NCBI GenBank assembly: GCA_019787685.1
Contig: JAHNUO010000017.1
Span: forward strand, 1 to 64,000
Direction of reading: 5' to 3'
From: Chiua virens
Taxonomy: Eukaryota > Basidiomycota > Agaricomycetes > Boletales > Boletaceae
Length of the DNA stretch: 64,000 nt
Made by a program: the position numbers and the translations under genes
The notes under the pieces: generated by a model
The model's database searches: none
What the model saw: the letters and a program-made list of their open reading frames with translations, nothing else
Told to the model about the DNA's origin: nothing
Part shown: positions 10,494-54,194 of the stretch, piece by piece
How positions within the stretch are numbered: position 1 is the stretch's first letter
Layout: each line of letters starts with the position of its first letter

Positions 10494-12947
10494 TCATACC
10501 TTGTAAGTAGTAAAGACTTCCCCGAGATCGATCGTGAGCACAACAGAAAAGACAAGAACCTGGACCATCTCGAGGACGTACAATTGGTGGGATCATATTT
10601 CTCTTTTATCTGCAGCAAGCGGTCGTACTTGTAGCCGAAGAAAGCTTAAAGAAAGAAAAGACCTGTCAGGCCGAACCGGGAGATGTACAAAAGATGCACT
10701 GATTACCTTCCTGCCAATTCATTTCCCATGCACTTCCCTCGTTTTGGTAGGTGCTCGTCAGCCCAAGGGCCTTCAAAGGGCCTATTGCATTGTATACGGC
10801 CTGTGTCAACAAGCGACGAGTGCTCTGACTTGTCCCAACGGTCCAGGACCTTCAACCAGCACGTGGTTAAACCCTAGACGTACGTAGTCAACGAAGAGAC
10901 TTACCCCAGATAAACTACCTCCCACGCAGCGTCAAAGAAACCTGGGTTCGCCGCTGTCTCGTTCACGCGATCTCGCATAGCAATAGGCATCTCGCCCATG
11001 ATGAACCCGCTGACTTGAGGGTTGAAAACACCGTCAGGGTAGTCTGCTAATGGGGCAGTGGCAATCTGCAGACCCTCCCAGATGGCTTCCGCAACACTCT
11101 GGACGGATTCGGGGCTTTCAAACATTGATTGAGGTACAAACCGAGACGCGATTTCCGTAGAACCACCATAAAGGGCGAGAGAATCATCTTGAGGGCCGAC
11201 ACCCTCTAGTATTGCAGTAGCGAGGGACGGATACAGGGATTCCTGTGTAATGTTCGACAGGATGGTGTAGTTGGACGAAAGGGCGCGTAATTCGTCGAAA
11301 AGTGGATAGAGCACTGATATAGATGCATGTTCGGCAGGCCAGAGGAAGCTCTACAGTTCCGTAAGTCAGCATGATACCACTCCATAAGCTGCGATTTACC
11401 AGGATGTACCCTCCCCCAAGAAACCCCATAGTGGTCGTGATACCTGAATTAATAATTTGGTTCTGATATTTCCCTACGAGTGCTAAAAACCCCACTCCAA
11501 GAGTCTGGAGATTCTGGGTAGCGTTTGGCTCGATAATCAGTGATGAACCACCGATTGCCGTCGGCGGCAGCGCCGCAAGAGTGATCGATACTAACAATTC
11601 TTCGTACTCAAATTCCCGATCATCACAAGGAAGGACATACTAATGATACCCCAGCTTCCAGCACCTCCGCCACGTACTGCCCAGAATAGGTCAGGGTCTT
11701 GAACGGAATTTATCGTTCTGAACACGCCGTTGGCCGTCACAATCTAGTAATCCAGATTGTCAAAAAATAGTAGAAATCAAGGAAGACACCACTCACTTCG
11801 GCCTCAAGAAGGTTGTCAGCCTGAAACAATTAGCGATCTATGGTTTTAAACGCGGAAGGGGATCTCACAGCCAGCCCATAGACCGGACTCAGGCTAGTTT
11901 GGAATATGAGGACAAAAGGAAATAAAAATGAGCACTAAACACTCACATACCATGCCCCCCTCCCTGGATAAATCCGCCTGCCGATTCAACATTGAGCACA
12001 ACATGATCAACAAGACAACCAGACGCAGCCACTCACCAGCACCGACAGTCAGACAACCTCCCAATACCGCCGAAATATTGTTTACTTCCAAAACGGCATA
12101 GACTAAGTAATGTATCAGCAATGCGTAAAGACACGTGTGATTGGAGACCTGTTGCTTACTTTCCTCCAGCTGTGCTCCTGCACTAATCTTGAGCGCGGGT
12201 ACCGGCGCAGCGGACGATCCTTGGGGGACGAAGTCGGTGACATAGGCAATACTCTTGAGATGATGCGTAAGGACTTGTAAGGAGGAAGGACCGGAAGAGC
12301 GACCCTGGTAGTCATGTCCTAGGGATGAAATTTAACTTGGAGACACGAGTCGCGTAAGGCGGTGCGTGCAACCCACCCGTGTTCTTGATAGTCAGTTTCA
12401 CATTGTGTGCTGTAGCCCACTTGACGACGATGCTGGCATCCTCAGCACCTGATATTGCAATGCTATACGTTGGGGTGGTGCCTTGATGGCATGTTTCACC
12501 GGACACTGGCTGCGGGTTAGAGTAGTTCAATGCACAGCCTTTGTCGAAGCCACAACTCTCCCAGTTTGCCCAGAGAAGCGCAGATGGTATGTCTTCGCGC
12601 TGATTATAGGATCATCCTGAGACTCGTTTTAGCCGGATAGAGAATAGAAAACGACGTACCGCATTGTCATTCGTGTAGTTGGACAGAACCGATTGACACT
12701 TGACCGAATCGTAAAGGGGGTCGTCAACATAACATACCGCTGCCCACGGACGTAATTCTTGAAGTCGGCCACCGAACGTATCGTTCAGTGCTGCCCAAGT
12801 AGACGTGCTGGGGAGAGAGAAACTCTGGACTGTATGATAGCTTTGGACACCGGTGCGTGGGGTTTCGACTGTAGTAGTATGTGGGAAAGTTCTTGCACAG
12901 AAGCACAAGGCCACGAAAAGTGGTAGGAATAATGGAACAGATGACAT
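10494..12947 (-). CDS. Secreted FAD-linked oxidoreductase, copy 3 (berberine-bridge-like)
   Basis: Third intact tandem copy. Exon 1 starts at 12947 with [20 protein letters not shown] (signal peptide) and ends YTNDNA before GTACGT. Exon 2 runs [17 protein letters not shown] to VKLTIKNTG. The following exon starts [14 protein letters not shown] and ends SAGAQLEE. Later blocks are [73 protein letters not shown] and [15 protein letters not shown]. The last exon reads FFTTYKV and then meets TGA at 10494. It therefore lacks the CG.. tail of its sisters, a natural C-terminal shortening of about 10 residues or more. Catalytic features of the family are otherwise retained. Confidence 0.85.
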
Positions 12948-13136
12948 GCCAGTGTCCAGTGAGTCTCTTCCCCACCAAAGGCTAGGGTAATGGGTTTCGT
13001 TGTCTTTCAGCGCTCCGCGATCGGAGGTGCCCTTGACTCATCACGCAGTGACTAATGAGATCTTGAGAATAAGCAACATGTAACTTTGATTACCGGTGCA
13101 GCACATGTATGTGGCTGTGCTAATGTCTGGCTTTTT

Positions 13137-13153
13137 GATCGATCGATCGATCA
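13137..13153. repeat. GATC simple repeat
   Basis: A short run of GATC units (about four) in the spacer between the oxidoreductase copy 3 promoter and the 3' end of the F-box gene. No function inferred. Confidence 0.7.
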
Positions 13154-13191
13154 TCAAAATTACAGTTGGGTATACCGACGTCAAATCCGCT

Positions 13192-14901
13192 TCAAAGAAG
13201 TGTAATTGTGCCCATACGTGAACCAAGCGCGATCCTCCCCGTCCAATCGGACACCGCACATATCGTGACGTCGTCTTTCAATAAATCCGTTAGTAAACCC
13301 ACAACAAGGACATTTTCATGCATACGTACCTCGGAGATCACACGACGAAATGAAATGGATGACCTTGCCGTCCATCGTCGGTACTTCCGGTGAATATCCG
13401 CTGGAGACCACCCCGCCTGCTTCCGCAACATAAGACATTTCATTGTCCTTCTCCTGCAGCTCCATCGGATCTGTTGTGAATGCCACCACCCTGCGTTCAA
13501 TACTCCCCCTCTGCCTATCCACCCATACTCCACGTAAACCTGCCGATCCCAGCGACCAGCTCTGGAAAAACATCAGTCTGATCATGTTGCCCCATGAAAT
13601 TGTTGGTGGTATATCCGGCATCAGTATAGTACCCATGGCTAGAACCTGAACAAACATGGCCGGCACGGGCACTGTGGTCACGCGGATGTAGTAGTGGAAC
13701 ATGCCTTGATAGACATCGTTGCTGAGCATGAAGATGTCATAGGCATCGCCGGACGGGCAATGCGAGATGCGTACGCGGGACAGAGAAACGGACCGAAATG
13801 AGACCGCACCGAATCGATGCCTCAATACAGGAAGAGGACAGGGAGTTGAACCATCCGTAGGGATGGGGTATGCTTCCACAGAACGAACCCTGAAACACAA
13901 GATGTAGGGGCCGCAAAATTGCGAAGATAAAATGCCGTTCCACTGGGGTACGACGTGAGGTATAGGCATAACGCAAGCGTTACAATACTCACATTTTCAT
14001 CGACGTCATCAGACTGAATGGACATTGTTGAGCGCCTATTGTTATCACCCCAGTACACGACACAGATAGAAGTTGGAGACTCGTATAATATGGCACGACA
14101 GGTATCGGGATCCATGTGCTTGAAGGATTCACTTTCACGCAACGGAAACTCTGCTTCCCAGTGCAGGCGTTTGTCATCGTTCTCATTGACCCCAAACTGA
14201 GCGTCAGAAAGGGAAATGGAATGAATGACAACACTACATAAGGTCAGGCAACGATTGGCAAACATCAAGGCAACACACCTCCGATGGCCCTCATGGGTGT
14301 GCATATCGGCAATATAGAGCTTGGAACGATGCTCAACATGGCCGACAAATGTTTGCAACGTGTAATGTGCCCAGGTAGTGGGGCAGGTCATGCTCCACAA
14401 TGACGTATCCCAAATTATGACAGAGCGACCATCACCATCCACGGAAAGAAGGAAGCGATCCGAGATAAAGGCAAGAACCTGCCACGAGATGCCCCTTGAA
14501 GTCGAGTGTGGGTCTGAGGAAGATCTAGACCAGAGTACGTTTTGCTTTCTGAGCTGCAGGAACGATGCTTCAGTTTCGCAGGCTACAAAGAGTGCGCGCT
14601 CCGCCTGCGTAGTGGGCATTGCCATGAACTCGGCGCGAGAGTAGGGGAGAGCTTGTGTTGCATGTAGACGGGCGTATATCATCAACCAAAGGCCACGATC
14701 TTGGGTGAGGTCGATAAAATGCTTGCATGTCTAACCACTTTGGTCAGTGGAAGTGTCAAGCGAACAAGCAAGAGTGGTCAGTGCCTTTCGCAGCGCAATT
14801 AAATCCCTAATGTCAAGAAAAAAGAGGACCTGATAATACAGCTCCAGTGGAAGAGTAAGAAGATTAGGGTGAGTTGGGTTGCGGGCTTGACTTGGATCCA
14901 T
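13192..14901 (-). CDS. F-box protein, paralog of the gene at 31090-32808
   Basis: Exon 1 (14901-14785) starts MDPSQARNPT and carries an F-box core, LLTLPLELYYQVLFFLDIRD followed by LIALRK. It is followed by a 54 bp intron (14731-14784) that begins with GC rather than GT. Exon 2 starts TCKHFIDLTQDRGLW. A large middle exon ends at VDENV before GTGAGT. The next exon contains CGPYILCFRVRSVEAYPIP, and the last exon ends TGRIALGSRMGTITLL with a stop at 13192. Such proteins usually couple a substrate-recognition region to an SCF ubiquitin ligase. The substrate is unknown. The C-terminal region has beta-propeller-like strands (GRSVIIWD) but no clear WD repeat series. All exons seen are open. Confidence 0.72.
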
Positions 14902-15199
14902 GAATGGGTTGGGTAATAGGACCCACTCATATCGGACGAACGTAGACCTTTACTATTATGTAAAAAGCAAGCACTGCTTCATGCATGATTCAAGGACCAT
15001 GGAGTCGCCCGAGAATTGTACTCACCCCCAATTCATCATCGTTTTTTGTTACTGAACTCCCAATCAGCGATTTGCTAATTTGTCTTCATCCTCGGTTGGA
15101 TCATGACGACCAGGCCCTCTCTTCCCCAGTGTCGTATCGGAAGGATGCATATTGGCTGACTCATCGAACGGAGCTGCATCATGTTAATTTTGAGCTCTA
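14902..15199. other. Intergenic, no gene seen
   Basis: Upstream region of the F-box gene, expected to hold its promoter. No other coding signal seen. Confidence 0.4.
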
Positions 15200-15900
15200 A
15201 CAGAAACCCTGATGTATGCCCAACGACTCACGCTACGGGTTCATAAGTTCAGTGCATTTATCAGACGTTCTCCGCACTTCTTTGAGGTATGTATCATTCA
15301 CTTCATCGTAATCCCGTTGCAAACGCGTCAGAAAGCAAGACTCTCCGTCCGTCGTTTCCAGAGATGCCTTCGGATCCAACTCCACATTCTCCAAGAAATT
15401 TGCCAATGTCCTCGAAGACGACTACAGTCTGCATGTTCGCCTTTAGAGAGGAGTGGGCCGAATGCAATGCGAGGTGAGGTTGTAGCAGTCTGGTGTTGGT
15501 CGGTTCAAGCTGTTGACGAAAACAGGAGCAGTGCAATGACTCGTCTCGTGAAGGAGGGGTTTCAGGAGTTCAAAGGTGTATGTGCACACATCAGGATAGA
15601 AGAGCTGAAGTTGGGCGTGTCGAGAACATCGGACAAGTCTCTCAGCCCATTGCCCTCTATTCACTAAGTTGGCCGAGTTGCTCGTGTCTCCCAGAATCAT
15701 GCTGGCATCTCCATCATCGCACACAACCTCACATAGGACATGAAAGCCCTATAAACCGCCCTTGATCGTTGAAGTTCTGTCCACAACAGTTAATATGTTC
15801 AATTTGGCGTCGAGTTCAGCACCGTCCTAAACGCCTTCAAAGGGTACGACATCCCAACAAAGTGTCTCCACGTTCAACATATGCTCGGGCTAATTAGCGA
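15200..15900 (-). pseudogene. Possible decayed F-box/LRR-like gene
   Basis: On the minus strand a frame with protein-like composition runs through LNVETLCWDVV (about 15870), LDAKLNILTVVDRTSTIKGG and CDDGDASMILGDTSN to ELLKPLLHETSHCT (about 15560). Two in-frame TAG codons interrupt it near 15785-15835, and the frame changes further downstream. The blocks resemble the LRR-like part of agaricomycete F-box proteins, but the likeness is weak. It could be an unrelated chance frame. Confidence 0.28.
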
Positions 15901-16233
15901 TACACGGCGACCTACACGCCATCTCTTTCAAACTCCAGTTTCGGTGATGGCTCGTACGGCACGCTGGATTGCCAGAGATACCGTGACGACGGTTCTTGTC
16001 GGAGTTCCTCCAGGATGGCTGGCGCGGGCTCGTCGTCCGGTTCATTTCCAAATCGCTCTCGAGACAATGGTTTTAATCAGGGCTTAGTCGTGCGTCAATC
16101 ATCGTAATTTACATACATATTGGACTACCTCGCGTCTTTCTCTTACACGGACTTTTGTATACAGCTAGTTCCGTACGTCTGAAACATGACGTTGTACATC
16201 GTTTTTTCGCAAGTTCTGCTATGCAGTTGACCT

Positions 16234-16611
16234 CTACAAACGATTCCAGGCGCGGGGACCGCAGGGCTGCGACACCGATGAACGCCCTCGCAGGTCGTTG
16301 CTCCCGATTGTCGACGTACTAGAACGCAAATAGCAATGGACACGTCGGTCATCGATCAGGATGACATACGACTGTACCTCGAGATATATCTCATTATTGA
16401 AAGCGCGAATGTAACGATAAGGGTAAAGAGGGGAAACGCACGGCTTCTTGTTGGATGGGGTCGACGACGTTGTGGTCATTGTCACATCCGACACCTCCAG
16501 AGACGTATACTGTGATGACTTGCATGGGCTCTGAAGATCGGACGGACGGACGCTGGAGCACGGATAGAAGAAGGGGGCGTCTGGGATGTTGTTGACGGTC
16601 ACCTTCGGCAT
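16234..16611 (-). CDS. Small hypothetical protein
   Basis: Uninterrupted 125-codon frame starting MPKVTVNNIPDAPFFYPCSS. It is rich in Ser and Pro in the first half, with no recognised domain, signal peptide or membrane segment. A TTTATAATTTC element lies roughly 70 bases upstream on the minus strand. No homology recognised; it may be a real small gene or an accidental frame in a gene-poor stretch. Confidence 0.3.
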   Translation of the reverse strand: MPKVTVNNIPDAPFFYPCSSVRPSDLQSPCKSSQYTSLEVSDVTMTTTSSTPSNKKPCVSPLYPYRYIRAFNNEIYLEVQSYVILIDDRRVHCYLRSSTSTIGSNDLRGRSSVSQPCGPRAWNRL

Positions 16612-18004
16612 AGCGACCGCTTCATTTGAAATGTTTCTGGATATCGTTCAGTTTTGCGGGATATCGAACAGGGTTCGAAATTATAAACTATCCGATATAT
16701 GGAATCAGAGTGAATTCCGCTTCAAAATTCACTGAGAGCCAGGTCAGGTAAGCCGATGGACGTTTAGCATGATCCAGCGTGATTGCACCCCGTTCGGTCA
16801 TCCGTGCATGTAAGGGGACGAGAAGAAGACACTTGCCACTTGGCGCCGAGCAAGTTTCTGTTCATCCACGAAGACCCAACACTACCCGGGTGTAACAATG
16901 CATTGTAGTGGACTACATATGTGACTCCTACTAAAAATATCCTTGTTACTATATCGTTGTCTCAACAAGCTACGAGACCAGACTTGGAAGTAGAAATTAT
17001 AGCCCATTCAAGTTGCAGAACGTTGTGTCGCTACCAAAATCATCGACGTTTGGAGTTTGAATTTGTTGGAGATCGAGCATCGAGCATTAGTATAAACACG
17101 AGCAAACCAAGCTCGGCCTCACTGTGTCAAGACAACGACTGAGTCGTCCGGAGACAATAGCAGTAGGGTATATAAAATGTCGACCTGTATCAGGGGACTC
17201 GGATCCTAATTCATAGTCGTCGTCCCCGGCCCTCACAAGGGTTCACTTCGTCTGATCCGAGTCAGTCGCCACCTCGCGTACTCCTGCTGCGAAAGAATTG
17301 AATCTCGAGTGTAGGAATTTCGGGTAAAAGTTGTCACCCCCCACTCTGCGCCATTCCTGTCGCTCCGACGTATCGTCCTCTGAGATGCAGGGCATTCGTC
17401 GCCGGATTTCCGATAGTGTCAAGCACATTGTCATCGAGATGTCCCAACAGACAGATGTTCCAGTTACACGGTTGAAAATATGCTCATTTCACTGGCACTG
17501 GAGTCGCAGAGTCGACTCAACGCTGAGTCAAATATGCTTTGTACAAGCAGACTAGCGAAGTGTCCTTCGTCCAATTGAATGTGAAAGGAAATGTACCTTG
17601 CACACACTGGATGTCATGGTAAGTTGTGTCGCTTTTTGATTGCTTCCTCTCAAGCTGCTTCAGTTTCCAAAGGGTTTACTTGAAAGAAGCTCTGATATAA
17701 CGCTTCCGGAGATTGGCAAGTTGCCCTACACAAAGTGTGCAATGTCAAGGTGTCGAGGTCGACCCTTTGTTGCCCACTGAAGCATGCAGGTTTCACCCGC
17801 AAATGTGTACGTGATGCTATCCTACAGTCACCGATATAAGATTTCTGTTATCTCCCATCAAGCCGCCGTCGCCAATGCACCTACCCAGCCCAACTTGTGA
17901 ATTGGTGTGATCAAGGATCTGGTACTCAGGCTTCCTGATCTGACTGATAGCACGAATACACTGCCGAACTCGGATCAGACCCGACCCCCTAATGAAAGTC
18001 AGTC
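16612..18004. other. Intergenic, no gene seen
   Basis: About 1.4 kb with only short frames (for example 17243-17434 minus) lacking motifs. The last ~100 bases resemble the downstream flanks of the other oxidoreductase copies. Confidence 0.4.
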
Positions 18005-20459
18005 CTAGTCTACTTCATCATTCTCGACTTCGCGACAAACCTTGTAAGTCGTGAAGACTACACCGAGATCGACCGTGAGTACAGAGAAAGAAGATGGTAT
18101 TTTGAATACATACAGTTGTCCGGGTCATATTTTTGTTTGATCTGCAGCAATTGGTCGTATTTGTAACCAAAGAAGGCTGGGGCCGAGAAAAGGTAAGAAA
18201 AAAATCGACTAGGTCGACTCGCATGAGCAAGCAACCTCCGTACCTTCTTTCCAGTGTGTTTCCCATGCACTTCCTTCGTTTTGGTAGCTGCCCGTCAATC
18301 CAAGCGCCGTCAACGGGCCAACCGCATTATGCACGGCTTGTGTCAACGAACGATAAGTGCTCTGATTCGTCCCAACGGTCCAGGCTCTTTACAACACACG
18401 ATCAGACCTAGTACCAACATAGGCAACACAGTGAAAGAAGCCTACCCTGCATACGCCACGTGCCATGCAGCATCATAGAAACCTGGGTTAGCGCCAGTGT
18501 CATTCACTTGGTGTTTCGTGGCAGTGGGCATTTCGCCAAAGAGAGCCGCACTGATTTGGGGGTTGAAAACGCCATTTGGGTCGTCCTCCATGGGGGCGGT
18601 GACGATCTGTATCCCTTCCCAAACGGCCTCAGCAACGCTCTGGATGGTTTCAGGGCTCTCTAACATCGAATGAGGCACAAAACGAGACGCCAGCACCACT
18701 GAGCCGCCGTAGAAATCGATCGAATTCATATTGGGGCCGACGTCTTCCAATATGGCAGCACTGATGGATGAATACATGGATTCTTGTGTGAAGTTTGACA
18801 GGATGGTATAGTTGGACGACAGGGCGCGTATTTCATCGAAAAGCGGATAGAGCATTGATACAGACGCCTGTTCCGCGGGCCAGAGAAAGCCCTGTAGAGC
18901 GTCAACTGAGCATCGTGTCGCTCATGTCATTCGTGCACTAACCAAGCTGTATATTTCCGCAATGAACGCAGTGAAGGAAGTGACACCCGAATTCATAATT
19001 TGATTTTGATACTTTCCTAGCAGTGCTATAAAGTTGGTTCCAAGTGTTTGAAGGTCCTGCGTGGCGTTTGGCTCTATAGTGAGTGACGAAATACTTATTG
19101 CTGTTGGAGGTAGCGCCGCAACAGTAATTGATACTAGAAGAATCATTTTTCGTTCCCTGATTTTCGATTTCAAACTGGAGAAACGCACCAATGATACCCC
19201 AGCTTCCGGCCCCTCCACCACGTACTGCCCAGAAGAGGTCAGAATCTTGGACCGCATTTATCGTTCTGATTACGCCATCTGCGGTCACAATCTGACAATT
19301 CAAGTCAAAGAGGTGAAAATAATAATGGCAATTGATGGGACTTACTTGAACCTCGAGCAGGTTGTCAACCTGAAACCATCATAATCAGTGTCATTAGTTA
19401 CCCCCGTAGGAATGGATATCTCACCGCTAATCCGTAGGCGGGACTCAATCTAGTTCGATTGGGAATGATGAGAAATAATAAACATTGAAAAGATTAGCAC
19501 TCACATACTGTGCCCTCCTCCCTGAATGAATCCGCCCGCTATTACAAAGTTGAGTATACAACGTCACAAAATTGGAGGTAAACCACTGACCAGCACCAAC
19601 CGTCAGACAACCTCCCAATACAGCGGAAACATTATATTCTTCCAAAACCGTATAGACTAGTGAGGTCCCAGTAGTGTTCAACGATTCAAGTTACCGAGCA
19701 TGTATACTCACTTTCTTCCAGTTGCGCTCCACCGCCGATCGTAACCGCAGGCACTGGTGCAGCCAACAATCCTTGCGGGACGAAGCTTGCGACATACACG
19801 ACATTCTTGAGATAATGGGTGAAAACTTGCAGGGTATCAGGGCCAGAAGAACGACCCAGGTAGTCATGGCCTGGGAACAGTATATAAACAAACATGCCAA
19901 GCACAAGGGGCGGACGATGCCAAACCTGTGTTCTTGATCGTCAATTTAACATTGTTGGCTGTAGCCCATTTGACGACGTTGCTGGCATCCTCGGCGCTCA
20001 ATATGGCAATGCTATAAGACGGGGTAGTCCCTTGATAGCACGTTGCACCAGAAACCGGCTGCGGGTTAAAGTAGTTCAATGCACAGCCGTTGTCGTAGCC
20101 ACAGCTCTCCCAGTTTGTCCAGAGAAGCGCAGACGGTATGTCTTTACGCTAATCAAAGGATTACGAGACTCGTTTGACTAGACAGGCGGAACAGGACGTA
20201 CCGCGGTGTCGTTTGTGTAGTTGGCCAGAATTATCTGACACTGAACTGGATCGTAGAGCGGGTCGTCGACATAACATACCGCAGCCCACGGCCGCAATAC
20301 CTGGAGGCGACCACCGAGCGTGTCGTTCAGCGTTGCCCAGATTGCATCATAGGTCCGGGGCGTATATGGAGTCTCAAAAGTTTTTGTGAAAACGCCGCCT
20401 GTTAGAAACAGGGTTAAGAGGAATGGTAGGAAGGAGGATATGGCCCATGACTCGGACAT
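18005..20459 (-). CDS. Secreted FAD-linked oxidoreductase, copy 4 (berberine-bridge-like)
   Basis: Fourth intact copy. The start at 20459 gives [20 protein letters not shown], a signal peptide. A longer in-frame extension to 20555 is less likely because it would precede the signal peptide. The mature start region is shorter than in the sisters ([14 protein letters not shown]). Further blocks: [138 protein letters not shown] and [15 protein letters not shown]. The last exon reads [17 protein letters not shown] with a stop at 18005. The conserved His before DY(L/Q)GRS is present. Secreted flavin oxidase of unknown substrate. Confidence 0.85.
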
Positions 20460-29969: not shown

Positions 29970-30910
29970 CATGACGTGCGTCACGTGAAGTCACTCAGGG
30001 GTTATATCCGGAGGTATGTCCACAAGCCTTATCAGGTAGATTCGACATCTGCACGGATTACTCCAAGGAAAAGGCCATTCTCTTTCTTCCAGATGCGTTT
30101 GGTATCGAACTCGTCAATGGTCAAGTACGGGTCTCCTTCACGCTCATGCGACACACTTGACTTATGATAGTATAACGCAACAGCTGCTTTCGATGATTTT
30201 GCCAGAAATGGTTTCCAAGTATTGCCTTCCCGTTCACACTGGCAGGTTGTCTTCTGACTTATCTTCGTATATAGGTTGGAGCCATCGATCTCTTCATCGG
30301 CGATCCAGCTCCCATGGATGCCATGGAGGGAGGCTTATGCATTTTACTTCTCATCAGCGAAAAGCTCATTCCTTTCAGGCAGGAACATTTAACTTCGGTG
30401 CCTGGCTGCAGAAACATGGCACGAGTGTCACTCGTCCTCGCATTGACAACGTCATCGCTGCGTTTAAGCAGCAGGACGTAAGGGAATTTGCCCGCAACTG
30501 GCTACTGCTTCAATGGCACGTTCCTAGCTGTGGCACTGGCATGGGATATGCTACTAAGCCTGGACCATTTGAACAGCTCGCTGCGTTTTTTATCTTGCAT
30601 TCGACAAGGTTATCAAGGTTGCTGCCGTTGCTCAGCCTTCTTTCCTCAGGGTTCCTGAGGACCTCCACGTGCGCGTCGCTATCACACGTGTGCACTGTGG
30701 TACATGTCTTGTGACCTCACGCCACATTGCAGAAAGTTAAACACAACCGAGTACCCCTCCTTATCAATTCTGCAGAGTTTGACCAAGACCCAGGAGTACA
30801 GGCGAGAATACTTTGAAGGCTGTGCACGTGGATTCGCTATCCTCAAGGTCAGGGCTGGGAAGGAGGGTGCATTCAGAGCGACCGTCGAGTTCTTCTCGGA
30901 GCACCTTTAG
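29970..30910 (+). pseudogene. Decayed dienelactone hydrolase copy
   Basis: Third member of the DLH family, degraded. Recognisable in order: DYSKEKAILFLPDAFGIELV (about 30060-30120), AAFDDFARNGFQ, VGAIDLFIGDPAPMDAME, FGAWLQKHGTSVTRPRIDNV, a nucleophile-region TGYCFNG reachable only after a one-base frame change near 30495, and FYLAFDKVIKVAAVAQPSFL. The last exon reads EYRREYFEGCARGFAIL and ends RATVEFFSEHL at 30910. The first coding exon (MSLC..) is missing. A block of about 20 codons between the Asp region and EYRREYF is deleted, and the catalytic His of GC(T/V)HGFAVRG is Arg. Several independent lesions make function very unlikely. Confidence 0.8.
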
Positions 30911-34408: not shown

Positions 34409-35610
34409 ATGTCACTCTGCGACAAATGTGTTTCAGGTATGTACGCTCACCATGGATCAATTTACGATCTGATCCATATCGATGGTGTGGCAGGCGTTCG
34501 TCACGAGGGCACGCCCGAGGGTATGTAGTTGTAAACACGTTCACTTGCGTATGTTGATCTCGACTCGGTTTGTTCACGTTCTTTAGGCAAGGTTATCGAG
34601 TTGGACGGCGTCAAGGTCTACTTCGCAAAGCCAACTGGTGACTACCCCAAGGACAAGGCCATCCTTTTCTTGCCTGACGTCTTTGGTATCGAGCTCATCA
34701 ACGCCCGGGTACGTCGTGCTCGTTTCTGTCCACTGATCAGCGTTGATACTGGTAGATGATAGTTGCTCGTAGACGACTTTGCCAAGAACGGGTTCCAGGT
34801 ATGACACTCCTGCGTCTACCGGCGCTAACCTTGACGCCTTTCTCGTTTGAAAATAGGTTTACGCCATCGACTACTTCGGGGGTGACAATCTCGCACCCGA
34901 TGCACTCAACGTGAGCAATCATCCCCTATTGGCAAGGTTCGAGCAATTGACATGGGCACTTTCATCGTTGATGTGTCGACCAGCCTTCAGCCAAATTCGA
35001 CTTGATGGGCTGGCTCTCCAAACACGGTCAAGACGTCACTCGCCCCATTATCGACAAGGTCATCAATGCCCTCAAGAGTCAAGGTATCACCCAGTTTGCT
35101 GCTACAGGTTACTGCTTTGGTGGTGAGTCCCATTCACAGACTGAACGTGCGGCGTCGATTAAGCAAACGTGATCGATCGCACACCCTACCAGGCCGCTAT
35201 GTCTTTGATCTTGCGTTCGACAAGGCCATCAAGGTTGCTGCCGTCTCTCACCCTTCCCTCCTCCAAGTGCCCCAAGACCTGCATGTAGGTCCTTCTCGTT
35301 ACTGTATGCACGCCTCCGTGGCGGTTTTACTGACCTTCACCGCTCGTATCAACAGAAATTCAAGGAGACCGGACTTCCCCTCCTCATCAACTCGTGCGAG
35401 GTGGACCAAATGTTCCCAATCACGGCCCAGGCTGAGGCGGATACCATTCTCGGCGGAGGTTCCAAGTCCTCTGCACTGTATAAGAGAGAGTACTTTAAGG
35501 GCTGCACGCACGGTTTCGCCGTCCGTGGCGACCTTTCTATACCCGATGTCAAGGCTGGAAAGGAGGGCTCGTTCAAGGCTACCGTCGAGTTCTTCTTCAA
35601 GCACTTGTAA
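34409..35610 (+). CDS. Dienelactone hydrolase family protein (intact)
   Basis: Alpha/beta hydrolase of the DLH family. Exon 1 is 34409-34436 (MSLCDKCVSG) and exon 2 is 34494-34520 (VRHEGTPEG). Exon 3 starts at 34587 with KVIELDGVKVYFAKPTGDYP and ends GIELINAR at 34708. Then follow LLVDDFAKNGFQ, VYAIDYFGGDNLAPDALN, WLSKHGQDVTRPIIDKVINA, ITQFAATGYCFGG, VFDLAFDKAIKVAAVSHPSL and the last exon to 35610. The catalytic triad is visible: Cys in GYCFG, Asp in NSCEVDQMFP, His in GCTHGFAVRGD. The protein is cytosolic, with no signal peptide. The family hydrolyses dienelactones in aromatic degradation, but many fungal members have other, unknown ester substrates. A TATA box lies upstream. Confidence 0.9.
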
Positions 35611-35945: not shown

Positions 35946-38900
35946 ATGAATACAGCAAATCCAACACACTCTACTGGGCCGATCGTGTGTGTATTTGAAT
36001 TAACCCCACGACCGTGTTGGAATGCGCTGAGCATGCTTTTAGGTCTAAGATAATCACTATCAATGGTAGGTTGCAATGCTCGATTACGGGGCTGCATGGG
36101 AGCTAGATTCCTTCCGATTACTTCCCAGGCATCGAACTTCAAACCGACAAGGGACGCAAAAGCCCATTCTCCAGGCAGTATTTCGTCCAGATATCCGTGG
36201 GCGCTACCTCAAGACGGACGCGTAGCGGAAAGGAGACCACGAGTCGCACGTCCTGGGATGAAACCTTTTATTTGTGAGTATCTTGGCTTATAATAGCATT
36301 GTGCCAGAAATTCGAATGTCATCAGCGATGGCGACGATCGTTCAGTCGTTCTTGTTGTGATTTATCAGAAGCACCGTGTTGGAAGTGACAAACTTATCGG
36401 TAGCTTCAGCGATACTATTGGCGGGGTATTGGGACCACTCAAGGATAGCGGTAGGAAGGCATTCTATCTTAGGCTGAGATGATACTGACGCGATCTCTCC
36501 GATCAAAGTGATAGAACGGACTCTCAGCAGTCATGCTTCTGGTAATTCTGGTCTTTCAGGGATGACAATCAAGTTCGCGTTGGCTGCTGAGCTGCGTGAC
36601 GGCGTCAATGCAAGCAAGCTTCAAGCCGCCCATGCGGTCACCATGGCGACAGACACTGTCGCTGCAATCGGCTCCATGCCTGGAGTTGTTGACTGTTTTA
36701 CCTCAGTGACTGAGCCCGGCGCAACCGTAGTGAACGAGGCGCAGACCCTTGGAACCACATGGGACATCCTGTTGCAGAGGATGACACTGTTCAACACGAT
36801 CGTGGCTAAAATTACCGAGGTATTTGGTTCTCTCTCTTTCTTCCTCACAGTCTGATTTCCATACAGATTCACCCGTACGCGTCTATGGCATGGTCTGTTG
36901 TATCAGCCATAAACAAGGTCGGTCTACTGTTCTTACATGCTTACGGCCATTGATTGCCACGTCTGTAATTCGTACAGGCACTTCTCGATCAAAAAGATCG
37001 CGACAGTGCAATCATTCATTTAGCAAGCACGATGAGTGACGTCTTCGAATTTGTCGAGAACGCCGATCTCTTAAAGACAATCGAACCCCACATCAAGACC
37101 ATCATACCGTTGATCCAGCAAGTAACCGAGTGTGGATACTTCATTGCCGAGTATAGCAAGGAGCAGAGCTTCTGTCAGTGATTGCCGGTGTCGTAATGCC
37201 TGTCGCTGATCTCTCTATGCAGTGACTCGGACCGTGAAATATACATTCTCTGATATCAACGTGAAGATCACAAATTACGAGAGCGAACTTCGAGAACTCA
37301 AGACCAAGTTTTTGGAGGGAATCACATTCCAAACCGGAATCACCGTCGTTCGTATGATGAATGTGGTGGACCAGACCCGTATGCCTTCTTCCCTCTTGAG
37401 ACTATGTCTAAATGCTCACAAATATGCACTACAGAAGAAGCTGTCGTCCTGAATGATATGCCGTACGCCTCCGGGGCGAGATACTCGCAGGATAAGGGTT
37501 GTCTTCCGGGGACTCGTGAGACTCTCCTTCGGGAAATCTGTGACATCCTCAACAATCCTGCCGATGATGCTCCCCGAGTGTGCCTTCTAACCGGGGTCGC
37601 TGGATCGGGCAAGTCTGCTGTGGCCCACACGATTGCTCGACTGTACGACGGGCAGAGGCGCTTAGGATCGTCGTATTGCTTCGCTACCACTGACATCGCG
37701 AGGCGCAATCCAGGAAACCTTTTCAGCACTATTGCGCGGGATCTCGCCGATGTTGACTCTCAGTACAAATATGCTCTTTGGAGCATCGTCAAAGGCAACC
37801 AAGCGCTTCGTAGGTCGGAGACACCTGCTGAACAATTCGAGCAGTTCATAGTCGGGCCCATCGAAAATCTTGATGTTATTGGGCCAATCGTCATCGTGAT
37901 CGATGCTCTGGATGAGAGTGGCGAAGCTGTTGATCGTGCGCGGCTCCTAGCCGCTATGTCGGAACAGATCTGCAAGAGCAAGCTGCCAACCAATCTTCGC
38001 TTCCTCATCACCTCCCGTCCGGAGAAGGACATCATCGACGCACTTTCGTCATTCCCACACGTCCTCCATAAAAAAATGGGTGACATTGCGACGGTGACCG
38101 TTGATGCTGATATCGAGAAGTTCATCTATCATTCCCTCCATCGGTATGACGAACTCGAGTCATCTTGGCACAACCTAGAGTGGTGTCGACTACTTGTCAA
38201 TCGTTCCCAAGGTCTATTCCAGTGGGCCGCAACTGCTTGCAATTTCATTAGAGGCATCGGTGCGGTTGGACTTAGCCCCCGCCAGCGGTTCAAGAGAGTT
38301 CTGGAAAATGACAGTCATGCCATCGTCCGCCCTCTAGACGCCCTATACCAGAGAATCCTTGACGATCTATTTACTCGCGATGACACTCGGCAATCCTTTC
38401 GGGACGTGATGAGCGTTGTCCTCGCGCTGAAGGAACCGTTACCCCTCCCCTCCCTTTCTGCCATATTCGACCCTGACGAAGAAGTCGACATCCAGGCCAT
38501 ACTCGGACCCATGGGATCATTGTTGGATGGCGTGCTTGACGAGGATAAAGATAAACCCATCCGGCCACTCCACGTCTCTTTTCGCGACTTCTTACTTGAC
38601 CAAACCCGCAGTTCTACCCTACATGTCCCAATCCTCCCCCGGCATCACCTCTTTCTCGGACGAGCATTGCTTGCTTGTATGCATAAAATGCTCAAGTTTA
38701 ACATCTGTGATCTCAAAGACTCCCGACGTCGTAACTCCGACATCCCTGATCTGTCAACCCGCATAAATGTTGCCATTCCTCCTCATCTGTCATATTCATG
38801 CCTGTACTACATGGATCACCTACAACATGTCCAACCTACTCCAGACCTTGTTGATGACATTGCTCTATTCTTCAAGAATTCCTTCCCATACTGGCTTGAA

Positions 38901-41240
38901 GTCATCAGTTTCCTCTCCCTCTCATCTGTGTCACCCATCCTGTCTGCCTCTGAGTCCTGCACTGTCCTGCAATACTGGGCCCAAGTAAGTCTGACCATGT
39001 GAAGATATAATATGTATTGACAATGAAATTTCTAGGGTCATGAGATTGCCAGTCTGGCCATAGAGGCATCTCAATTCATCCACCTGTTTGCCCCTGTGCT
39101 CAAAGAGTCCACCCCTCATCTGTATCTGTCAGCCATGTCTCAGACCCCCTCCAACTCTTCACTGTGGCAGCTCTGGTTGGATAATCTTGTAAAGCATGCC
39201 TCTATCACCTCTGGTCATGCTACTTGGCCAGTGGATGTTCATGTCCTACAGGGCCACAGAGATTATGTTAGGGCTGTTGCTTATTCTGCAGATGGCAGGT
39301 TCATTGTCTCTGGTTCAGATGACAAAACTGTCAGGGTTTGGAATGCTACCACTGGCCAGATTGTGGCAGGTCCTTGTGAGGGGCACACTGACCATGTCAG
39401 CTGTGTTGCCTTTTCCCCAGATAGCAAGCACATTGTCTCTGGCTCATATGACAGAACTATCAGGCTTTGGGATGCCACCACCAGTCAGACTGTGGGAAAG
39501 CCATTTGAGGGGCACACAGATAAGATCAGATCAGTTGTTTTTTCCCCAGATGGCAGACATATTGTCTCTGGCTCAGATGACAGTACCATCAGAGTATGGA
39601 ATGCAATTACTGGTCAAACTGTGGCAGGTCCATTTGAAGGGCACACAGATTGTGTTAGATCTGTTGCTCATTCTCCAGATGGCAGCTATATTGCCTCTGG
39701 CTCAGAGGACAGAACCATTAGGGTTTGGAATACCACAACTGGTCAGATTGTGGCAGGTCCTTTTGAGGGACACACAGGAGTTGTCCTGTCTGTTGCTTAC
39801 TCTGCAGGTGGTAACTCCATTGTCTCTGGCTCAGATGACAGGACCATCAGAGTCTGGAATGCTATCACTGGCCAGACTATGGCAGGTCCATTTGGAGGGC
39901 ACACAGATAAAGTCAGGGCTGTTGCTTTTTCCCCAGATGGCAGATATATTGCCTCTGGCTCAGATGACAAGACCATCAGGGTTTGGAATGCTACTACTGG
40001 TCAGACTGTGGCAGGTCCATTCTTTGGGCACACAGATTATGTCTTCTCTGTTGCCTATTCTCCAGATGGCAGGTATATTGCCTCTGGCTCAGATGACAAG
40101 ACAATCAGGGTTTGGAATGCCACCACTGGTCAGAGTATGGCAGGTCTGTTTGAAGGACATACAGATTATGTCAGGTCTGTGGCATATTCTCCTGATGGCA
40201 GTTCCATTGTCTCTGGTTCAGATGACAGGATGGTCAGGATCTGGGATGCCACCACTGGTCAGAGTATAGCAGGACCATTTGAAGGACATGTGGATTATGT
40301 CAGGTCTGTTGCCTATTCTCCAGATGGCAGTCATATTGCTTCTGGATCAGATGACAAGACCATTAGGCTTTGGGATGTCACCACTGGTCAGACTGTGGCA
40401 GGTCCATGTAAGGGGCACATGGATTATGTTAGGTCTGTTGCTTTTTCTCCCAATGGCAAGTATATTGCCTCTGGGTCAGATGACAGAACTATCAGGGTTT
40501 GGGATGTCACCACTGGCCAGACTGTGGCAGGTCCATTTGAGGGGCACAGAAAGTATATCAACTCTGTTACTTTTTCTCCAGATGGCAAGCATATTGTCTC
40601 TGGTTCAAGGGACATGACCATCAGAATTTGGGATGTTACCACTGGTCAGGCTGTGACAAAACCATTTGAGGGACACACAGATTTTATTAGGTCTGTTGCC
40701 TTTTCCCCAGATGGCAAGTTCATTGTCTCTGGCTCAGATGACAGGACAATCAGAGTTTGGAATGTTACCACCAGTCAAACTGTGGCAGGTCCATTCCAAG
40801 GACACACAGGTGTCATCACCTCTGTTTTTTTCTCTCCAGATGGCAAGTACATTGCTTCTGGCTCAGAGGACAAGACTATTAGGGTTTGGGATGCCACAAC
40901 TGGTCAGATTGTAGCAGGTCCATTCCAAGGGCATACAAGTGTTGTTACCTCTGTTGCTTATTCCCCAGATGGTAGGTATATTGTCTCTGGCTCAGGTGAC
41001 TATTCCATCAAATTATGGAGAGTAGAATATTTTTCCTTCTTTGATGATTTAGAATACAAGGAGGATGGTTGGATTCAATCTTCTGATGGAGCTTGCTTCT
41101 TCTGGGTTGTTCCTTCACACAGGCATGATTTCTGTCTTCCAGTTCATTCTTTGACAATATCTTCTCATGGAACTTATCAAGTTGATTTTGATTTCTCTTT
41201 GTTTGGAGAGGCATGGACCTCTTGCTGGAAACCAGCTTGA
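35946..41240 (+). CDS. C2-NACHT-WD40 NLR-type receptor
   Basis: STAND/NLR protein of the fungal NWD class, related in layout to heterokaryon-incompatibility HET-E/D/R. The N-terminus is built from exon 1 (35946-35986), a 23 bp exon (36043-36065) and an exon from 36129, giving KIITINGIELQTDKGRK and QYFVQISVG, a C2 domain ending near GGVLGPLKDS. A helical linker follows. The NACHT domain has Walker A GVAGSGKSAVAHT and Walker B IVIVIDALDESGE, then LRFLITSRPEKDI and the conserved RPLHVSFRDFLLD. After an intron (about 38986-39035) the WD40 part starts: 14 repeats of 43 residues (39240 to about 41030). A short tail includes WIQSSDGACFFWVVPSHRHD, typical of basidiomycete NLRs. Frame intact to 41240. 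From 38762 the gene has no CpG. It would sense non-self ligands through the propellers; the ligand is unknown. Confidence 0.88.
39240..41030 (+). repeat. 14-unit WD40-coding tandem repeat, 129 bp period
   Basis: Fourteen WD40 units. Units 2-13 are all exactly 43 codons (129 bp), starting at 39375 and stepping to unit 14 at 40923. Consensus per unit: F-EGHTDYVRSVAYSPDGR, then YIASGSDDKTIRVW and ATTGQTVAGP. Differences concentrate at a few positions, such as the residues after GHT and after SPDG. Fourteen units equal two seven-bladed propellers. The array contains no CpG; all Arg codons are therefore AGA/AGG. Confidence 0.92.
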
Positions 41241-43728
41241 TAATCCTTTGCTCCATTTAACTATAGTTTGTGATGCAATATGCTTGTGTGCTTTTGTACC
41301 ATACAAATAGAATCCTGGTGTATTATGACCTTTACACTGCCACATCACTGGCCACTGGACAAATGTGGCAGTCAAAATGGCTCCAAAACCAACAATAGAT
41401 AAATAAATTTCTATCCACTAGCATCCAAATCTAGTTACATTGAGATCAAACACAAAATGTGAGATCACACAGAAAAGTTGCAGTGCAACCCGCACAATGC
41501 CTACAAACTTCATCAACTCCTCCGAGTCATCGAGCAGACCCAGAGGAATGACTGCCATTGTTTGACCCACCACCACAAGTGCCTGAATTTCCTTGGCCGC
41601 CATTCTTAACGGTGGTCGCATTTGGATTTCCCCAGTAGCGCCGCTTGATCACAGCCTTTCGGGGAGTGGTCTCGTGTGTCTAAACTGTAGTTAGTCCTCG
41701 TTCAAAATGAAGTACCCGTTCGAAAACCTCACCTGTCGGAACGGCATTGTTATAAAGTTCAAAAACAGCTAGTAGGCTTTCAGAAGATGGATAAGTACTA
41801 ATTTTTGCGCTCAAGGAAAGGTAAGCATCATTGGGTGAATATGGGATCAAAGCTTCGCTCACCCGTTGGTTGTAAGAACGATCAGTTGAGTTGTCCTCCG
41901 TTATCGATGCAACCTTTCTTTATACTTCCCAGGCGAGTCCATGCCGGTGTTCATTGCGTGCTTCTTCAAGTTCGCCTTATTGGAACCTTCGCTCCTTGAT
42001 GAAAAAGCGTGCAGTGACTTGCACCGGAATTCCAACAATAATGATGATTGATACGAGGACATCAATTGAACCAGTTACTGCAACGCTCAACCATTATTTC
42101 CTGTGGAGTCGTCACAGTGCATCATCCCCCACGGCGATGGAGAAGAAACGTGAGCCCATCAAGCTATGGTTTTTATGATAGCCTAATACTTATATAGCCT
42201 TCGATCATGAATCGTGTGGTCACAAAGCGATTTTGAATTTGAAATCGTTCCTCGGATGCGGATGAAGACAGGCTGGTATTGTTCTAAGGCCTCGGACTCT
42301 GCTGTCCGACTCAGATGACGCGATGAATGGCTGTGGCAACGAACCGCGGTGAATGCATCAACCGCAAGATGGGGTCTAATTCGAGCACCTGCTGTGTGAG
42401 GGAAATTAACATGCGTTGAACAATGGTTATTGGCTCATCTAGCCTTTTTCTTTGGCGCTTGAAAGAAATTAAACCGATCGCGGCACCGATTGACCGACTG
42501 TGAGACATCGTAGCAGTACAGGTTGATGGCCTGATAATGATCTGTGCCGCCGGATACTCGGGAAACAAAGTAGCCAACAAGATGGTCATCCCCGGCTCGG
42601 AGATAAGTGTGAGGGTTCGGCTAATAGTTTCGCGGAATGAGATGTCGATCGTTTTTTGTCGCATTAGGGTGCAAGTACTTCATCCATTTGGATCGGACAT
42701 GGACATCTGGAACGTCTAGAATGGGGATGCGGAGACGGAAAACTGGTGAATACGACATTGGTCGTCTAAGTGGTTCAACGTTCCGTTCCCATATAGTTCG
42801 TTGCCAGGAACTGACTCGACACTCAGAATACGTCCTATCAACATGTGAGAAAGGGTGTTCACCTTCAATGGGACAGTTGATTTAGGCCAGAGGGAGCGGA
42901 GGGTACGCGGCACTGTAGTGCAGGAAATGAGCACAGCAGAACCTGTGATGCATCATCCTTTCCCATGCCAAGCTGATGAGCACCGTCTTCGTGAAATGAT
43001 TCGGGAGATGGCTAAGTATGAACCACCGGTCATAGGTATCTTGCTGGGCTTGAACCAGATGGTCGCGCGCTTTCTGCCACGTGCTTCATCCTGCTTGAAC
43101 AAACGATTAGAAACTGTGCAGAGAGATGGAAAGATGGAGAGTGCACAGTATCACAATATCCGCCATGTTGATAACCGATCAATTGACTCACCAAGTTGAC
43201 CGATTAGAAGGTGGATGCAACGAATGTCTTGCCTGTAGGTGGTAGTACACCAAAACAAAAGAAGATAATAAACCTATGCGGCAGTAGTATGCCATCCCGA
43301 CTTTCAATCTTTACATAGCCTCCGGTCCGTGGAGCTGTAGCTTTCGTTGCGTGATGGATTACACCAGGAAGCTAGTCAAGACCGCGCCAGTGACAGGCAA
43401 GTTGTTGGTACTGTTGACACCTGTTTGGATCCATATAAAAAGGGTAATCCCTGTAGACTGGGCCTTTCTGCGATGACTCGATTACATGCTAGACGGATCA
43501 CTGACATGGCATAACGAGAATGTTGAGAAAGGCCAGAATATCGCTACGACAAAAAACTGAGGCCCGAGAAAATAATAAGCTTACACCCTTATGAGTAAAG
43601 CATCGACGAGGTATAGAAGAACACGTGGGGTCGAGTGAGCAAGCAAGTTTATTACGCGATACTTATACACGCAGCTATCTTCGATGAACCCAAGCTTCTT
43701 GACGTAGAGCATTTTGCACCACAGAAAT
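41241..43728. other. Gene-poor interval, possibly a decayed membrane-protein gene
   Basis: To 41490 the DNA is still CpG-free. Beyond that there is no convincing gene. On the minus strand about 42000-42110 reads VAVTGSIDVLVSIIIIVGIP, a likely membrane helix. Frames at 42311-42664 and 41680-41862 look protein-like but do not join into a model. They may be the ruins of an agaricomycete multi-pass membrane protein. I cannot assign it. Confidence 0.3.
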
Positions 43729-52400: not shown

Positions 52401-54194
52401 GAGGCAAGCTTCTCCGACATTGGATGGGGCACGAAGACTTCGTCGTACATGCGATCAATCATGAAAGTGGGAGACCGAAAATTCAACCAAATCGTCAGCG
52501 GGGCGCGGGAATACTGCAACACTGCCGTGCGTTCTAGGCAAGCGCAAGTCTCTTACGACGCATCCACTGCGGGTGATGTCAACATAGATGACGACCGGGC
52601 ATTGATTGCCGTGTCCTCCGATATTGAGGCTGAAATGGATGGCGAAGGCAAGTGTTTCGAAAGCTCTTGCTACGACGTACTGATTTCTAATTACCGGACA
52701 GTGTGAGGAGGCGAAATGGTGTAGTTCATGGCGGGCGAGAGAGCTAGAAAGGGGCTTGATTCGGTAGTTAGAGGTCCGGCCCTACTATACCCCGTTTCCT
52801 ACTGTCATCTCTGAATTCATCACTCTGTGTTCCTACTGTGTGCAACTGTGAGTGGACTTTTTGGTCTGTGTACGGACTGTGTACAGGTGATGCGGTATGT
52901 ACACATAAGTGACATGTCTTTTCACAGTCACTTCACTGTGACGACTGTCGGTCTGTCGGATCTGTCCACAGTCCGTGCAGACGTCACAGTCGGGGTGACA
53001 TATTGCTGATGAACCGACCCTTGAACCCAGCAATACTGCCACTGTTTTGCAGGCGTTCGTCACGAAGGCATCCCTGAAGGTACGTGGTATCAGCTCGTTG
53101 ATGTTCACACATCGATCTCATCCCTGAGGGTTTGTGGCCCAATGATATTACAGGCAAAGTCGAGAAGATTGATGGCGTCAAGGTGTACGTCGCAACACCC
53201 ACAGTCGATTACCCAAAGGACAAGGTTATCCTCTTCCTGCCGGACGTTTTTGGCATCGAGTTCATCAACACCCGGGTGGGTCATTTGCCATATCAGCACA
53301 GCGTCCAGCCTTTATATACTATGGAACATAGCTGCTTGCAGATAGTTTTGCCCAAAACGGTTTCAAGGTAGAGGATGTCAATATCTCTGGGCTGTTTGAT
53401 ATTTCGAATCCCTCCAACAGGTCTATGCCATCGATTACTTCAACGGCGACCCTGCCCCACTCGAAGCACTAAATGTGAGTGATCATCAGTCCTGCCATCA
53501 TCCTGGGTATACAAGGCCCTTTGACTTTCCCACTCTTCAGAGCCCTGATGTATTCGACGTGTTGAAGTGGATCGGCGGACACGGCCAGGACGTCACTCGT
53601 CCGATTCTCGACAAGGTCATTAGCGCCCTCAAGAAGCAAGGCATCACTCAGTTTGCTGCCACGGGCTACTGCTTCGGTGGTGAGTCAATGCTTATGGCTG
53701 AAATGCGGACATGGGTTCCCTTGAAATGGCGGACATGGTCCGTGAAGGACAACACGATTGACAACCTGACTCAGCTCGCTATGTGTTTGATCTCGCGTTC
53801 GACAAGGTCATCAAGGTTGCCGCCATCGCTCACCCTGCCCTCCTCAAAGCGCCGGAAGATTTCGAGGTACATAAGTTACCCTTGAATGGCAACGCATGCT
53901 CATTTTGTGCGCCGGTCCTTGCAGAGATTCAAACCCACCGGAATTCCCCTTATCATCAACTCGTGTGAAGTAGACCAGAGGTTCCCGATCGAAGATCAGC
54001 TTCAGGCGGACGCCATTCTCGGTGGAGGCACTCGCATCTCGGAACTGTACCGGAGGGAGCACTTTGCGGGCTGTGTGCACGGATTTGCTGTCCGTGGCGA
54101 TGTGTCAAAACCCGAGGTCAAGGCCGGAAAGGAGGGCGCCTTCAAGGCGACTGTAGAGTTCTTCATGAAGCACTTTAAATTGACTGTCGTGTAA
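46415..54194 (+). CDS. Dienelactone hydrolase family protein with a transposon in intron 1
   Basis: Paralog of the gene at 34409-35610. Exon 1 is at 46415 (MSLCSECVSG, donor GTACGT). Exon 2 is 53053-53079 (VRHEGIPEG), and the rest follows to 54194. Exons give KVEKIDGVKVYVATPTVDYP, VILFLPDVFGIEFINTR, LLADSFAQNGFK, VYAIDYFNGDPAPLEALN, ITQFAATGYCFG, VFDLAFDKVIKVAAIAHPAL and SCEVDQRFP. They continue with GCVHGFAVRGDVSKPEVKAG and a C-terminal KHFKLTVV. Cys, Asp and His of the triad are present and every exon is open. Between exons 1 and 2 lies a 6538 bp Plavaka element, making intron 1 about 6.6 kb (57 bp in the paralog). Donor and acceptor survive, so expression by splicing or from exon 2 onward is possible but unproven. 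Confidence 0.8.
46474..46520 (+). repeat. Left terminal inverted repeat
   Basis: Begins CATCAGCAATATGTCACC; pairs with the reverse complement of 52965-53011 with two mismatches in 47 bases. Confidence 0.88.
46631..49987 (-). CDS. Plavaka transposase
   Basis: Transposase of the Plavaka group of fungal DNA transposons (KDZ-related). The start at 49987 gives MSPAGRFPVHPYRPKLF, followed at once by a C2H2-type zinc finger (CTFPFCNKACRTKGGLKRHS) for DNA binding. Later exons: DWTPFTRRAQFELAEFLY; DDLYESIDAIPYGDCPWQSF; VVTDENGQREVCDLMSGQW; FAPIVLGSDKTTVSVGTGN (catalytic-core region with conserved Asp); NVRRSHGGALSILAFLSIPK; LIAPDLLHQLIKGIFKDHLV; PDGMVRAIAAFLDFCYIARK; GLCSSITESRHIKAVKEPWR; and a C-terminus with MWIVTPEVNAVGHRVRAVIS. 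The stop is at 46631. Roughly 900 residues by my exon model. No frame break was found, so it may be active. Divergent from the accessory gene, with starts 468 bp apart. Confidence 0.85.
49988..50454. promoter_or_regulatory. Bidirectional promoter of the transposon
   Basis: The 467 bp between the divergent transposase and accessory starts is the only place for a shared internal promoter. Elements not resolved. Confidence 0.4.
50455..52706 (+). CDS. Plavaka-associated accessory protein, DUF6532-like C-terminus
   Basis: Start at 50455, MPNHIITRAANKNRHPGTPD. An upstream in-frame ATG (50419) precedes it. The first half is charged and disordered (ENIHQVAEIEDQLHREMEMR is helix-forming) and has nuclear-signal-like basic words such as GKRKLERQG and QKKTKC. 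The second half is globular: FTKVFIPLLRLYCGTLENPW, ELWDEVMLDWPHWFDEDDNV, KYETPEERKAYVDFALSPSL, LRTLASHLKDVSVINDNF, and LKLIDYAMPRGALVLAVTS joined to VERALTLYSTGAKEVPSKRS. The IDYA.P.GALVLA..VERALTLY block resembles DUF6532, a domain of unknown function frequent in agaricomycetes. Several short introns; stop at 52706. Its position inside the terminal repeats makes it part of the transposon, but its role in transposition is unknown. Confidence 0.65.
52965..53011 (-). repeat. Right terminal inverted repeat
   Basis: On the plus strand it ends GGTGACATATTGCTGATG; it is the partner of the repeat at 46474-46520. Confidence 0.88.

Follow-up and report, generated by a model that had tools for sequence, protein, structure and literature searches.

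How does one part of a gene come to lose a single dinucleotide completely while the part before it keeps that dinucleotide at a normal level? The question is raised by a window of 64,000 nucleotides from the fungus Chiua virens (contig JAHNUO010000017.1 of assembly GCA_019787685.1), which lies on a 752-kb contig and belongs to the same 48.3-Mb genome across which our searches were made. The window carries a gene in which an NPHP3_N/NACHT domain is followed by WD40 repeats, i.e., a NOD-like receptor (NLR) of the NACHT-WD40 type (NWD), and the dinucleotide missing from its WD40 part is cytosine-guanine (CpG). We consider it probable that this CpG desert is the footprint of a CpG-specific process that is triggered by tandem repeats, first methylates and then mutates, and resembles the fungal processes named methylation induced premeiotically (MIP) and repeat-induced point mutation (RIP).

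Between the bounding CpGs at 38760 on the left and 41491 on the right, about 2729 bp contain no CpG against 142.9 expected from base composition; the GC content is 45.8%, and the observed/expected ratio (o/e) reaches 1.41 for TpG and 1.81 for CpA. The CpG-free observation itself is certain. The entire window has a CpG o/e of 0.93, its second-longest gap between CpGs is 104 bp, and 97 CpG stand between 37404 and 38760, in the exon that matches the Pfam families NPHP3_N (8.5e-21) and NACHT (2.1e-7). The WD40 repeat units, which by hidden Markov model (HMM) match occupy positions 1657-3459 of our locus L001 and by Tandem Repeats Finder extend over 39250-41000 with a period of 129, have a mean nucleotide identity of 74%, and the CpG-free DNA spills beyond them by 491 bp on the 5' side and 436 bp on the 3' side. 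In this spill, 38761-39237 holds 0 CpG against 24.7 expected, with TG at 49 against 25.9 and CA at 44 against 31.1, and the non-coding 41241-41490 holds 0 against 8.4, with TG at 23 against 11.1 and CA at 27 against 18.6. Arginine is written 37 times as AGR (AGA or AGG) and never as CGN in the desert exon, against 7 AGR and 29 CGN in the NACHT part. The initial annotation had described just this: no CpG from 38762 to 41490 where over a hundred were expected, abundant TpG and CpA, only AGA or AGG for arginine, and an extension of ~450 bp on either side of the WD repeats. It had also placed the boundary inside an exon, which holds for the left edge, within the NACHT-side exon; the right edge lies in non-coding DNA 250 bp beyond the stop codon.

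The depletion recurs across the WD40 NLR family of the genome. The strong-hit set comprises 27 loci with 129-bp WD40 arrays (L001-L025, L028 and L030); L026, L027 and L029 overlap L024, L023 and L025, respectively, and do not enter the count, and L034-L063 were excluded as matches within arrays already included. All 27 arrays have a CpG o/e of 0.00-0.03, with 30 CpG against 2911 expected when pooled (o/e 0.010), and the 5' parts of the same loci stand at 0.90-1.22. Near-identical NLR loci sit on the paired contigs C9/C43, C6/C27 and C32/C127, which suggests that the assembly includes alternative haplotypes; some of the 27 loci, e.g., L005/L006, L019/L020 and L016/L030, are probably of this kind, and the independent arrays are therefore fewer than 27.

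CpG alone is lost, TpG and CpA are gained, and the loss follows the arrays with similar units. Pooled over 25 family arrays, o/e is 0.01 for CG, 1.43 for TG and 1.91 for CA, and the unit columns that contain both TG and CA number 314 against 115 for the mirror pair GT and AC, the same count being 133 against 99 in 19 control arrays. When 11 close paralogs are compared, ungapped CG columns number 8 in the array, none of them fixed, and TG-and-CA columns stand at 25 to 3; CG columns in the NACHT part number 89, of which 40 are fixed. As a separate observation, in L007-L018 columns with a CA majority and a TA minority make up 32 of 221 in the array and 3 of 63 in the NACHT part.

How far the depletion reaches was read from 11 lineage representatives, which served for both the flank profile and the comparison of 3' shoulders. 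Per 100 bp away from the array, CpG o/e runs 0.02, 0.09, 0.04, 0.10, 0.26, 0.73 and 0.89 upstream and 0.04, 0.12, 0.03, 0.15, 0.39, 0.75 and 0.78 downstream; the depletion thus extends ~450-500 bp into each flank, symmetrically. The 3' non-coding shoulders are nearly unalignable among lineages, with a short match in 3 of 55 pairs, and they contain 18 CG against 111.8 expected, 251 TG against 173 and 259 CA against 190. No other result speaks so strongly for a process that acts on the DNA around the array, as opposed to codon choice or an inherited CpG-free sequence, and there is good support for a CpG-specific loss at the DNA level with tandem arrays at its centre. Long 3' deserts, running 1.0-1.7 kb or more past the array, were seen at L009, L019/L020, L005/L006 and L028, and L009 and L020 are still CpG-free where the DNA read ends.

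Table 1. Features of the NWD gene and its CpG-free interval, in window coordinates. The start at 37404 is that of the open frame, possibly not of the gene, and the 3' end of this exon is inferred from the splice site.
Feature	Position	Strand	Basis
CpG-free stretch, ~2729 bp	38761..41490	not specified	0 CpG vs 142.9 expected
NACHT-side exon, CpG normal up to 38760	37404..38984	+	open frame 37404-39002; Pfam matches
Predicted intron, 51 bp, GTAAG...CTAG	38985..39035	+	read from sequence; both exons stay in frame
WD40 exon including stop codon 41238-41240	39036..41240	+	open frame, 714 aa from 39096
14 tandem WD40 repeats, each exactly 43 aa / 129 bp	39252..41054	+	HMM matches
5' shoulder, non-repeat coding DNA and intron, CpG-free	38761..39251	+	0 CpG
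3' shoulder, C-terminal tail and 250 bp non-coding, CpG-free	41055..41490	+	0 CpG; pooled profile

What distinguishes the depleted arrays can be approached through other repeated DNA. Of the weaker WD40 hits (20 stretches read out of 41 lacking a locus), 19 have a mean unit identity of 0.34-0.42 and an array CpG o/e of 0.83-1.21, and these controls include NLR-type genes, L065, L077 and L080 lying near separate NACHT matches; the sole CpG-free array of the 20, L075, has a unit identity of 0.52. Among seven ankyrin stretches (L095-L101), L096 (G000:C5:2162000-2163500), built of 300-bp tandem units that are mostly 80-98% alike, has a CpG desert of its own: 30 CpG fall in its initial 483 bp and 3 across 501-1330 (o/e 0.07), with TG at 1.66 and CA at 1.42. 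CpG is normal (o/e 0.91-0.99) in L101 and in L100, L095 and L099, whose identities are 0.60, 0.53 and 0.47.

Gene duplication was considered as the trigger and rejected, since 11 paralogs whose 5' parts are 90-100% identical across 1 kb keep a CpG o/e of 0.90-1.04 there; duplication alone is not enough. Four gene-sized copies at 1200-20400 of the window, 65-86% alike in places, spaced by 2.9-7.5 kb and presumably related to FAD-linked oxidases, likewise have normal CpG. Three dispersed gene copies, which resemble dienelactone hydrolases, lie at 30574-30909, 35190-35609 and 53772-54178 and are ~75% alike. A general repeat effect is not supported by ten reverse-transcriptase (retroelement) stretches with a CpG o/e of 0.62-1.20 (lowest L087, 0.62), although these were taken from the best-scoring, mostly intact copies and the sample is biased accordingly. 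The view that transposons are not depleted consequently stands for these copies and needs qualification beyond them: in 150 listed RVT_1 matches, a hand count of in-frame stops gave 22 TGA of 27 (3 TAG, 2 TAA), as CGA-to-TGA change predicts, and transposons therefore likely undergo a slower CpG decay.

Several results weigh against a process governed by unit similarity and spreading a fixed distance. In L096, CpG is back from position 1327 even though the last repeat is in parts 80-93% like its neighbour, and the 5' leak is almost nil. L097 and L098 have a best local identity of 0.91-0.92 and a CpG o/e of just 0.61 and 0.66, ankyrin L101 combines an identity of 0.77 with an o/e of 0.91, and polyubiquitin L094, with units up to 81% alike, stands at 0.82; of 183 sliding windows with a local identity of at least 0.7, 7 have an o/e above 0.5. 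Deserts on the 3' side run to 1.0-1.7 kb or more in the L005, L009 and L019 lineages, and belonging to the family largely coincides with having similar units. Similarity counts, yet the exceptions L097, L098, L101 and L094 require further factors, be it copy number, the length of the array, its age or its introns. As for timing, 6 of 371 TG/CA columns of the array have CG as the minority state, against 7 of 191 mirror columns, which is a weak test, and a turnover contrast of 0.891 against 0.057 overstates the difference, since any state that is rare will always be likely to differ; that erasure is still ongoing is only weakly supported.

From these patterns we infer both a trigger, the similarity of neighbouring units, and a chemistry, methylation followed by deamination. 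Similarity between adjacent repeat units would be sensed, and DNMT1-type and DNMT5-type enzymes, for which candidate genes are present, would place 5-methylcytosine (5mC) on the CpGs of the array and its borders. The methylated C would then change to T on either strand, purifying selection would weed out the damaging changes, and exchange among units would spread CpG-free codons until the targets were nearly gone. The CpG-free array might thereafter resist further attack and retain the uniform repeats used in NLR diversification. The earlier proposal is thus partly supported: the CpG loss with its gain of TpG and CpA, tied to the repetitive array and with the protein kept, holds across the gene family, and methylation and deamination remain its conjectural part.

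The candidate enzymes come from a six-frame search, from which intron-split genes can escape, and which found three loci of the cytosine methylase family PF00145. Two of these bear BAH domains, above the cut-off in L032 and below it in L033, and look DNMT1-like. In the case of the third, a same-strand SNF2 match follows 2.7 kb further downstream, a layout like that described for DNMT5, and the locus is a candidate DNMT5-type gene; such a layout with SNF2, and a CpG toolkit of Basidiomycota made up of DNMT1-RFD and DNMT5, are described in the available part of PMC13297926. A search for DNMT1-RFD gave no match in the genome, nor did it in the control genomes. TET/JBP matches number 23 in the genome, 18 of them above the cut-off and several with TGA stops, which suggests a mobile family of putative 5mC oxidases.

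A direct RIP-like change of C to T at CpG during the sexual cycle, with no stable methylated intermediate, is one alternative. The effect of ordinary 5mC deamination on mutation is roughly ten-fold. In a simple neutral simulation, with one run per setting, CpG o/e fell to 0.054 at a 30-fold and to 0.008 at a 100-fold CpG transition excess, so that the observed 0.010 requires an excess close to 100-fold, beyond what ordinary deamination provides; the sharp edge of the leak is also in keeping with direct mutation. On the other hand, none of the three PF00145 loci is recognised as RID/Masc1-like in the six-frame search, which may miss intron-split genes, PMC4352252, in the portion at hand, describes the basidiomycetes it analysed as having no RID/Masc1 genes, and gene-scale duplicates escape depletion. 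We regard direct mutation as rather unlikely.

Selection against CpG at the codon or DNA level, e.g., because it would let the receptors evade methylation and silencing, and with no local mutator, is very unlikely, although protein selection clearly acts: 24 of the 27 strong-hit loci have an open frame of 636 aa or more, reading frames are mostly kept, and CGN arginines have been swapped for AGR, the CGN:AGR ratio being 12:536 in family arrays against 168:55 in control arrays. The 714 codons of the desert exon, recoded with the codon usage of NLR 5' parts (taken from the 3 of 27 loci whose 5' part is readable in one frame), give 182 ± 9 CpG with a minimum of 147 in 5000 draws, and shuffling the exon's own synonymous codons gives 58 ± 5 with a minimum of 42 in 2000, against an observed 0. 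However, the non-coding 3' shoulders and the intron-bearing 5' shoulder are depleted too, with an excess of TG and CA, frame-broken copies, among them L023-L025, L028, L030 and L075, are equally CpG-free, and the desert edge disregards exon borders. Since the depletion is shared by non-coding DNA and by copies with a broken frame, codon preference was rejected.

A single ancestral CpG-free array, copied to all members by duplication or gene conversion, would fit the homology of every member and the concerted evolution of fungal NLR WD repeats described in excerpts of PMC1805685. Yet the 3' flanks, which have almost no similarity between lineages, are depleted over about equal distances, ankyrin L096 is depleted as well, and the loss of CpG from the first array would be left unexplained. 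The nearly unalignable, TpG- and CpA-rich 3' shoulders argue against a shared CpG-free donor as they do against codon selection; conversion from one CpG-less donor, which the initial annotation had offered as its alternative, was rejected as the main cause on this ground, and common descent from such an array is extremely unlikely.

An artefact of composition or assembly, or a bias that any homogeneous WD40 array would show, is hardly credible: such units are repetitive and difficult to assemble, but many loci on many contigs agree, unique-sequence flanks are affected, and all 15 bacterial WD40 loci have an array/flank CpG ratio of 0.74-1.15, just one of them, Richelia L102, with units more than 50% alike. 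In Richelia L102, whose adjacent units are 67% alike, CpG stands at 0.54 in the array and 0.48 in the flank. A search of the viral collection gave no relative.

If methylation and mutation triggered by tandem repeats are indeed at work, CpG deserts are a footprint, readable in DNA, of a repeat-sensing process in basidiomycetes, and sequence alone suffices to measure its apparent dependence on similarity and its leak of roughly 0.5 kb. Highly similar NLR repeats would then escape genome defence and stay functional because no CpG is left in them, and other species whose NLR repeats are conserved internally are predicted to carry CpG-free arrays. More tentatively, a CpG mutator that senses tandem repeats might patrol not only selfish DNA but also genes, and might have driven the NLR repertoire to a mutator-immune, CpG-free code in which near-identical repeats are kept and shuffled, so that genome defence and receptor diversification would be locked together.

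Among known systems, the agaricomycete Coprinus cinereus methylates CpG in repeats, chiefly tandem ones, through the sexual cycle, and we know of no mutation footprint there. In Ascobolus, coextension with repeat length is reportedly the subject, to judge from its title, of a 1993 paper. MIP in Ascobolus marks duplicated DNA by cytosine methylation triggered by repeats (available parts of PMC4352252 and PMC13207564), as the process proposed here would, and differs in that the visible trace here is mutation, that the loss extends ~450-500 bp beyond the repeats, and that gene-scale duplicates are spared. In Podospora, the HNWD/NWD genes with their internally similar WD repeats are a proposed target of RIP (excerpts of PMC1805685 and PMC4986451), which shares with our case transitions in the repeated DNA of a WD-repeat NLR family. 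As far as the excerpt of PMC1805685 goes, however, it prefers CpA and strikes whole pseudogenes, the WD parts not strongly so, whereas here CpG alone is lost, CpA is raised, the WD array is the centre and the NACHT half is spared. Classical RIP, with its preference for CpA, is thus not what we see, CpA o/e being 1.81 over the interval and 1.91 across the family arrays, and it acts on gene-sized duplicates, where the 11 near-identical 5' parts keep their CpG. Closer to home, the part of PMC4352252 available explains CpG-biased decay of basidiomycete transposons, as in Microbotryum, by a MIP-like process that involves Masc2-type enzymes, and that of PMC4014442 describes CpG hypermutation near repeats in Rhizoctonia solani AG8. 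These two cases, on what the same excerpts state, share with ours a bias towards change of CpG to TpG, there in Basidiomycota lacking RID and attributed to DNMT1/Masc2-type methylation and deamination; they differ in concerning transposons or genome-wide single-nucleotide polymorphisms, where we find intragenic arrays with a near-complete loss and sampled intact transposons that keep their CpG. We found no paper on CpG-free NLR repeats in the open-licence literature, which does not prove that none exists. CpG-biased decay of repeats in basidiomycetes is therefore known, and its near-total, intragenic, array-centred form looks new.

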